Below, piece after piece: positions 23,320 through 24,755 of a stretch of 64,000 bases of DNA. The number at the start of each line of letters is the position of its first letter. The first letter of the stretch is position 1. The DNA lies in NCBI GenBank assembly GCA_026261815.1, contig JAMPIT010000174.1, positions 9,114,001 to 9,178,000 of the forward strand. The letters are read 5' to 3'. A model generated the notes under the pieces. It worked only from the letters and a program-made list of their open reading frames with translations. It made no database searches and was not told where the DNA came from. This stretch comes from Monarcha castaneiventris obscurior. Lineage: Eukaryota > Chordata > Aves > Passeriformes > Monarchidae. The position numbers and the translations under genes were made by a program.

Positions 23320-24755
23320 CTACATCAGTCAACACAAACAAGAAAGACAAAAGTTCTGATCTAGTCACAACACAGCAGGGACAGCAGATAACAATATTGG
23401 CTGACACCAAGTGACAGTGTATCAAAGGCAAGAAAATAAAGAGTGCAGGCATTCCAGGAAAAAATATTTGTGAGTTCTTGTACTAATAAAAAGCTTAAAA
23501 CATATTTCTTATCTATGGCAGATCAGCCATAAATGAAGAGATATAAATATCATTTGGTATCAGAAATCCATTTAGAAGTGGATATTGTGTAGCTAAAATA
23601 ATTACAACAATAAAAATGATCTGTGAGGTAATTTAAAAACCTCTTTCCTAACCTATAAATTCAGCTTTGTCTACAAAGTAATACATCCTTCATAATTTCC
23701 CTCCCAACCACAATGAGGAAAATATCCCCTGTGAATATCTCATTCCATTTGTCACCAAGAAGAGCTAAATATTAGGTGAGCTTTCCACTCCAAACACACG
23801 GCCTTTAGGCATCCAACAAGTGACACACATGGACTGCTGTGCAAGCTTTGTGTCCCCTCCTCGCGAGCCTCGGGGTGCAGTGTGGGTGCTGGTGGCTCCC
23901 CGTGCTTCTCTCCCGTGCCGCGTTAGGTGAGGGAGGGTGGGGAAGGTGTGGAGTTAGTGAGGCAGCCGGTGCCGGGGCGGCGGCTGGCGGCAGCGGGGAC
24001 GTACCGTACAGCCCGTGCGCCCCGGCGGGGTCGCGCCAGCACTGCGACACGTCGTTCACGCTGTGGGACCTCTTGGGAGCGGGGCGCAGGCGGGCAAATT
24101 TGGGTCTAGGTAAGGTTGATGAGGAGCTTTCTACTGTTACAAAGGAGAACAAGCTTCATTCTCTGACTATAACCTTACATTACAATTAATTTCTCTATAC
24201 CAGTACTGTTTGCTCTTATACAGCTCATTTTGAGCGCATTAATTTTTACGTTACCGGGTGGTTGCATTCTTGTAAACTCCTGTAACACTCTGCTTGAGGA
24301 TTTTAACTTAATTGATACTTGCTAGATGAGCTAGCTTAGAAACATACCAAACATCAATTAAGAGTAATTTAGAGAAAGTACAATTAAGTATTTCAGTGTT
24401 GCCAACCTCGGGTGCTCAAGAGAGAGTCATACATTCTCAGGAACAGAATTTATGATTTTATTGAGAAAATTACTTTGTGACTCTTATTGTGCTTTCAGTT
24501 TCTCAGCCTTTAGGAAACACTAGATTCAACTTTTCTGTTTTTTTCCTCTGCACCTCTGAAGGTTTTAGTTGGCTCATCAGTCCTGCAACTATTGGAATTT
24601 GGACATTTAAGGGAGTAATTTGCTAAGATATAGGTGATAACCTTTTGAGAATTGGCAACACTACTCTTTTGATCAGACTATGACAAAATCATTGTCACAT
24701 AAACAGGAGAGCAGGATCTTTCATCTTAACTAAGATAGCTGAGATAGTACTGTAC
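23320..24755 (-). other. MAGI2: Short intron between WW2 and PDZ1 exons, carrying the candidate cassette
   Basis: The canonical intron is 1,436 nt (GTACAG donor at 24755, TAG acceptor at 23320), which is short for this gene. If the 24133-24005 segment is used it splits into a 622-nt intron (24755-24134) and a 685-nt intron (24004-23320). A GC- and CpG-rich patch covers about 23860-24085 and includes most of the candidate exon and the first 145 nt of the following intron. The rest is AT-rich with no repeat I recognise. Confidence 0.85.
24005..24133 (-). CDS. Candidate in-frame cassette exon of MAGI2, between WW2 and PDZ1
   Basis: Seen directly: on the minus strand a good pyrimidine tract and acceptor (ttctcctttgtaacag) at 24134-24149 is followed by 129 open bases and a strong donor GTACGT at 24004-23999. 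The segment begins with two bases and ends with one base of split codons, so it is symmetric in phase 1. The WW2 exon ends in G and the PDZ1 exon begins AA, so inclusion changes no frame. The 43 added residues begin VESSSSTLPRPKF, continue ARLRPAPKRSHSVNDVS and end with AGAHGLY before EKPLF. The segment is basic and Ser/Pro-rich with an RxxS-type site (KRSHS). The last two thirds are very GC- and CpG-rich, unlike the neighbouring AT-rich exons. Known canonical MAGI2 lacks it, although the linker at this place varies among MAGI paralogues. Inference: alternative exon. It could instead be a chance ORF in a GC-rich patch, since the frame stays open past the donor to 23805. Confidence 0.6.

Follow-up and report, generated by a model that had tools for sequence, protein, structure and literature searches.

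A very probable ancient in-frame exon of MAGI2 between WW2 and PDZ1, with a candidate phosphorylation site in one of two conserved blocks

MAGI2 (S-SCAM) serves as a scaffold protein in synapses and in the kidney. In the canonical human form, presumably, GFR is joined to EKPLF without an insert at the WW2–PDZ1 junction. The intron at this junction in the window (the whole 64,000-nt stretch of DNA analysed here) holds an open segment bordered by splice-like signals, and the question is whether this segment is an exon and, if so, what it would bring to the protein. According to tblastn, the window encodes a part of MAGI2 on its minus strand. The flanking exons were placed by tblastn with a human MAGI2 sequence, and their ends were taken from a splice-site scan; the tblastn extents are 32347–32285 and 24885–24757 for WW2 and 23320–23132 for the start of PDZ1. 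The features are as follows.

32285..32347, minus strand: MAGI2 exon encoding the first part of WW2; the limits are the unrefined tblastn extent.
24756..24877, minus strand: upstream canonical exon (WW2b) with the second part of WW2 and the linker, ending GFR/G (tblastn and splice-site scan).
24134..24149, minus strand: acceptor ttctcctttgtaacag, which forms a NAGNAG together with TAG at 24133–24131 (scores 7.95 for the first site and 5.33 for the second).
24005..24133, minus strand: the presumed cassette exon, 129 nt, or 126 nt via the second NAGNAG acceptor; 43 codons, read with the leftover G of the WW2 exon as VESSSSTLPRPKFARLRPAPKRSHSVNDVSQCWRDPAGAHGLY; 139/139 proteins listed have a homologous insert at this junction.
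24099..24125, minus strand: block A, codons 4–12, SSSTLPRPK (coordinates counted from the exon start).
24045..24071, minus strand: block B, codons 22–30, RSHSVNDVS in the window (commonest letters RSRSVNDLS), its Ser at codon 25 being the candidate phospho-site (position derived by counting from the start of the exon).
23999..24007, minus strand: donor ACG/GTACGT, score 7.9; the intronic gtacgt starts at 24004.
23137..23319, minus strand: downstream canonical exon, the first of PDZ1, EKPLFTRD... (tblastn and splice-site scan).
23801..24150, no strand: CpG-island-like stretch spanning the exon, whose 3′ part is the densest, and the beginning of the following intron (base-composition scan).

An earlier, sequence-only reading had proposed an exon at 24133–24005 with phase 1 at both ends, an open frame and a strong acceptor and donor; coordinates, length, phases, frame and splice sites were all reproduced. 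With the leftover G of the WW2 exon the 43 codons contain no stop, as against frame 1 of the same segment without this G, which is interrupted by stops. The 3′ end of the exon returns phase 1 to EKPLF of PDZ1. Splice sites were scored with approximate weight matrices. On this scale the acceptor of the exon reaches 7.95 (3.33 for the PDZ1 acceptor and 3.01 for the WW2b acceptor) and its donor 7.9 (4.54 for the WW2b donor). The proposal that both sites arguably surpass those of the neighbouring canonical exons thus holds within this intron and fails one step further on, at the donor behind the first exon of PDZ1, which scores 8.44.

It had also been argued that a chance reading frame could scarcely combine all these properties. 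The 64-kb window was filtered for segments of 60–250 nt with exon-level splice scores, open in phase 1 and a multiple of three in length. The minus strand yielded two such segments, the exon included, and the plus strand three, of which two have a common donor; in 40 first-order Markov resamples of one strand, 0.25 segments passed on average (range 0–2). With five segments in the window passing this filter, the sequence criteria are suggestive and not decisive, and it is conservation that decides the exon. No RBFOX-type GCATG is present in either flanking part of the intron (622 and 684 nt), and no Rfam family matches 22000–26000 at gathering score.

Homologous inserts were looked for in three protein searches of a database whose proteins are cluster representatives at 90% identity. 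With the insert of the window as the query, 44 of 50 candidates were matched at E up to 1, and the best E value was 1.7e-19. At the same limit, a query of concatenated koala, coelacanth and bat inserts matched 112 of 1745 candidates, and a query of teleost, chimaera, lungfish and gar inserts matched 135 of 3519, with 120 among the matches listed; the last two queries were built from inserts of proteins found earlier, so self-matches are included. The matches listed comprise 139 distinct proteins, and each of the 139 has a homologous insert at the WW2–PDZ1 junction, with the WW2 linker upstream and the EKPLF start of PDZ1 (ERPPF in lungfish) downstream. This bears out the proposed position of an in-frame exon in MAGI2. 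The homologous proteins are automatic gene predictions, possibly in part homology-driven. The closest match to the insert of the window is 90% identical to it, and the clustering may conceal a nearer one.

The source organisms include cartilaginous fish, ray-finned fish (sturgeon, gar, bowfin, carps, loaches and catfish), lungfish, coelacanth, squamates, turtles, birds (18 genera), two marsupials and six placental genera. These groups were read from abbreviated species names with the genera expanded ('[Lat' of P0037 as Latimeria, '[Glos' of P0044 as Glossophaga); '[Poda' of P0093 was taken as Podargus on its bird-like insert. No amphibian, crocodilian, monotreme or primate names were recognised among the proteins listed, which, given clustering at 90%, is no evidence of loss. 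Nearly all source annotations read MAGI2, 2a or 2-like, and one sturgeon protein is hypothetical. Four carp entries named 'protein 1' (P0117, P0119, P0120 and P0137) have the MAGI2-type EKPL flank, and no MAGI3-named protein is among those listed. The guess that the exon might already exist as a predicted isoform proved right, since database predictions of MAGI2 from sharks to mammals contain the insert. Such isoforms in RefSeq, UniRef and nr (for example Aphelo... X7/X9, Gallus X8/X10, Chryse... X5/X7 and Callo... X4) have the same exon position and a homologous insert; they belong to other species and are automatic predictions.

The pattern of conservation was read from an alignment of 63 rows, in which the window is joined by 62 of the 139 proteins at roughly one for each genus (Anolis has two). 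The other 77 proteins, being additional isoforms or close duplicates, were omitted; they include all those of the carp, minnow and loach genera Cyprinus, Megal..., Rhini... and Param... and two '[C...' or unnamed carp-like rows. Two blocks, S-[SA]-T-L-P-R-P-K and R-S-[RH]-S-x-x-D-L, are near-invariant, while the middle and the tail drift. Residues T7, P9, R10, R22, S25 and D28 are the same in all 63 rows, and L8, S23 and L29 in 62, the window being the only row with V at position 29. TLPR is found in 62 rows, as is R-S-x-S, in the latter case with the window included. The RxxS site named by the sequence-only reading is thus present and lies inside one of the two most conserved blocks.

Within each of the six groups measured, blocks A (4–12) and B (22–30) have identities of 0.81–1.0; these per-block figures exclude the two lobe-finned fish except as a reference. 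Birds have 0.99 in block A, 0.93 in block B and 0.59 in both the middle and the tail, and placentals have 0.85 in each block, 0.39 in the middle and 0.38 in the tail; the tail of ray-finned fish stands at 0.56. Against the coelacanth form, the tails of placentals, birds and ray-finned fish have identities of 0.18, 0.46 and 0.36, respectively. Over the whole insert, cartilaginous fish are 0.96 identical (PDZ1 0.96, upstream linker 0.85). The mean for birds is 0.76 over 19 rows against more than 0.99 for the upstream linker and PDZ1 (18 rows, as group means of the flanks exclude the window), and that for placentals is 0.61 against more than 0.95 for both flanks. Because an identity of 76% stands beside flanks above 99%, most of the avian insert is weakly constrained. 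The insert of the window is 67% identical to that of the coelacanth (P0037) and 55% to that of the catshark (P0057), which are 81% identical to each other. In the placental proteins P0044, P0098, P0106, P0110, P0112 and P0113 the C-terminal part of the insert is unlike that of the coelacanth (mean 0.18), with T[LV]PRPK and RSxSxxDL retained. Judged from the alignment, a linker that is loose except for two short linear motifs would produce this two-block pattern, which also suggests that constraint outside the blocks is weaker in birds and placentals.

Windows of 200 bp in 50-bp steps with GC of at least 0.6 and CpG observed/expected of at least 0.6 number four of 1276, all contiguous at 23801–24150, the only CpG-island-like place in the 64 kb (GC to 0.72, CpG observed/expected about 1). 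Besides the exon, chiefly its 3′ portion, this stretch includes the opening 200 bases of the intron downstream, and it may represent an intragenic regulatory element or a spot of GC-biased conversion. Codons 22–43 have a GC3 of 1.0, where the exons on either side have 0.40 and 0.45; block B is mostly preserved nonetheless, and the variable avian tail may result from local GC drive.

Block B was compared with two known phospho-motifs. The consensus of 14-3-3 motif I is RSXpSXP (PMC6678932), and among seven AMPK motifs in CRTCs and class IIa HDACs six have its Pro at +2 (PMC6890249). Block B shares R-S-x-S with motif I in 62 of 63 rows but has no Pro at +2, where N (38 rows), S (14), T (10) and R (1) are found. 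With the AMPK-family pattern LXRXXSXXXL it shares Arg at −3 and a hydrophobic residue at +4 (R..S..D[LV] in 63/63 rows, V in the window); the Leu at −5, however, is replaced by P in 59 of 63 rows, including the window, and by R in one, and is present in three. Without the +2 Pro and the −5 Leu, block B is not a strict member of either consensus, although it might function like an AMPK-family or 14-3-3 site. No match to the insert was found in Pfam or PDB up to E 10. The alignment of the MAGI-2 PDZ1 entry of PDB, 1ueq, starts at LFTR, so this structure is uninformative on the canonical WW2–PDZ1 junction.

With this distribution among vertebrates, segment 24005–24133 is very probably a genuine, ancient protein-coding exon of MAGI2, and most likely an optional (cassette) one. 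Its inclusion would add 42–43 residues to the WW2–PDZ1 linker and leave the reading frame unchanged. The insert would be a flexible linker with two short motifs, its disorder being suggested by composition. TLPRPK would be one motif of this putative linker module, and RSxSxxDL a candidate serine site for a basophilic kinase; once phosphorylated, RSxSxxDL could recruit 14-3-3 or alter the joint action of WW2 and PDZ1. Phospho-dependent binding of some partner by the insert has a probability of about one half, and 14-3-3 as that partner of about one third. The full proposal is that of a MAGI2 splice switch common to jawed vertebrates, in which inclusion installs a phospho-dependent docking module for 14-3-3 or another protein, near-unchanged in cartilaginous fish and decaying outside the motifs in birds and placentals. 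It is put forward tentatively, with its probability well below even.

Other explanations account for parts of the same evidence. An open segment between splice-like sites arising by chance in a GC-rich patch might be suspected from the five segments that pass the same filter on both strands of the 64 kb and from the place of the exon's 3′ part inside the CpG-rich patch. That position, frame and motifs are shared all the way from cartilaginous fish to mammals leaves this explanation with hardly any probability, and the homologous inserts rule out a chance reading frame. A different doubt concerns function. The exon may be real and ancient but now weakly constrained in birds and placentals, its inclusion being rare and the product near functionless, as the insert identities of 0.76 and 0.61 against flanks above 0.95, the low tail identities to coelacanth in placentals and birds (low in ray-finned fish also) and the CpG-rich 3′ end with a GC3 of 1.0 would lead one to expect. 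Blocks A and B, which stay at 0.85–0.99 within these same birds and placentals, speak against such decay, and the explanation is considered possible, if rather unlikely.

Both blocks could also be docking motifs for protein partners, with phosphorylation incidental. The retention of TLPR as well as RSxS, in 62 rows each, is in favour of this; the insert, however, matches nothing in Pfam or PDB, and no standard SH3 pattern was recognised in TLPRPK when inspected by eye. Such docking seems doubtful, though deserving of a minor share of belief. An exon retained from cartilaginous fish through to mammals, with a likely phospho-site between two binding domains, is a handle on possible regulation of the scaffold, and if the proposed phospho-dependent splice switch is real, mouse and human studies of S-SCAM/MAGI2 may have overlooked an ancestral regulated form.

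Optional inserts are known at other linkers of these scaffolds. According to the review PMC8428372, a 14-residue insert between PDZ2 and PDZ3 distinguishes isoforms 1 and 2 of MAGI2, likewise in-frame and optional but in another linker, and a 28-residue insert upstream of PDZ3 in the paralogue MAGI1 is likewise an in-frame linker insert but at another position. PMC10690602 gives alpha, beta and gamma forms of MAGI2 that differ in start site and reports that mice without all three die of renal failure. The passages of the two papers that describe these forms make no mention of a WW2–PDZ1 insert, and among open-licence literature no title or abstract opening describing one was found. As a sequence the exon is not new, being contained in predicted isoforms; as far as the literature searched goes, it is functionally undescribed.

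The acceptor cagTAG is a NAGNAG tandem with two AGs three bases apart, by which the exon would have 129 or 126 nt and the protein would gain or lose one Val. Predictions with and without this Val come from contigs of the same length in the pairs P0012/P0045 (Chryse...) and P0052/P0047 (Phaeni...), in other species and at the protein level only; such paired forms are as expected of a NAGNAG choice. P0048 and P0057 (Scyli...), with GFR-GSSS and GFR-EGSSS from same-length contigs, are a further sign of three-base acceptor shifts. In the lizard proteins P0042 (species not shown) and P0043 (Podar...), GFR-GTVSL-ESSSS replaces GFR-V-ESSSS; the GTVSL form would fit a WW2 exon 12 nt longer, with a downstream donor used together with the cassette exon. 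Elsewhere in the window, at 12935–13100, there is a tandem array of TATATT with 27.5 copies and 95% matches.
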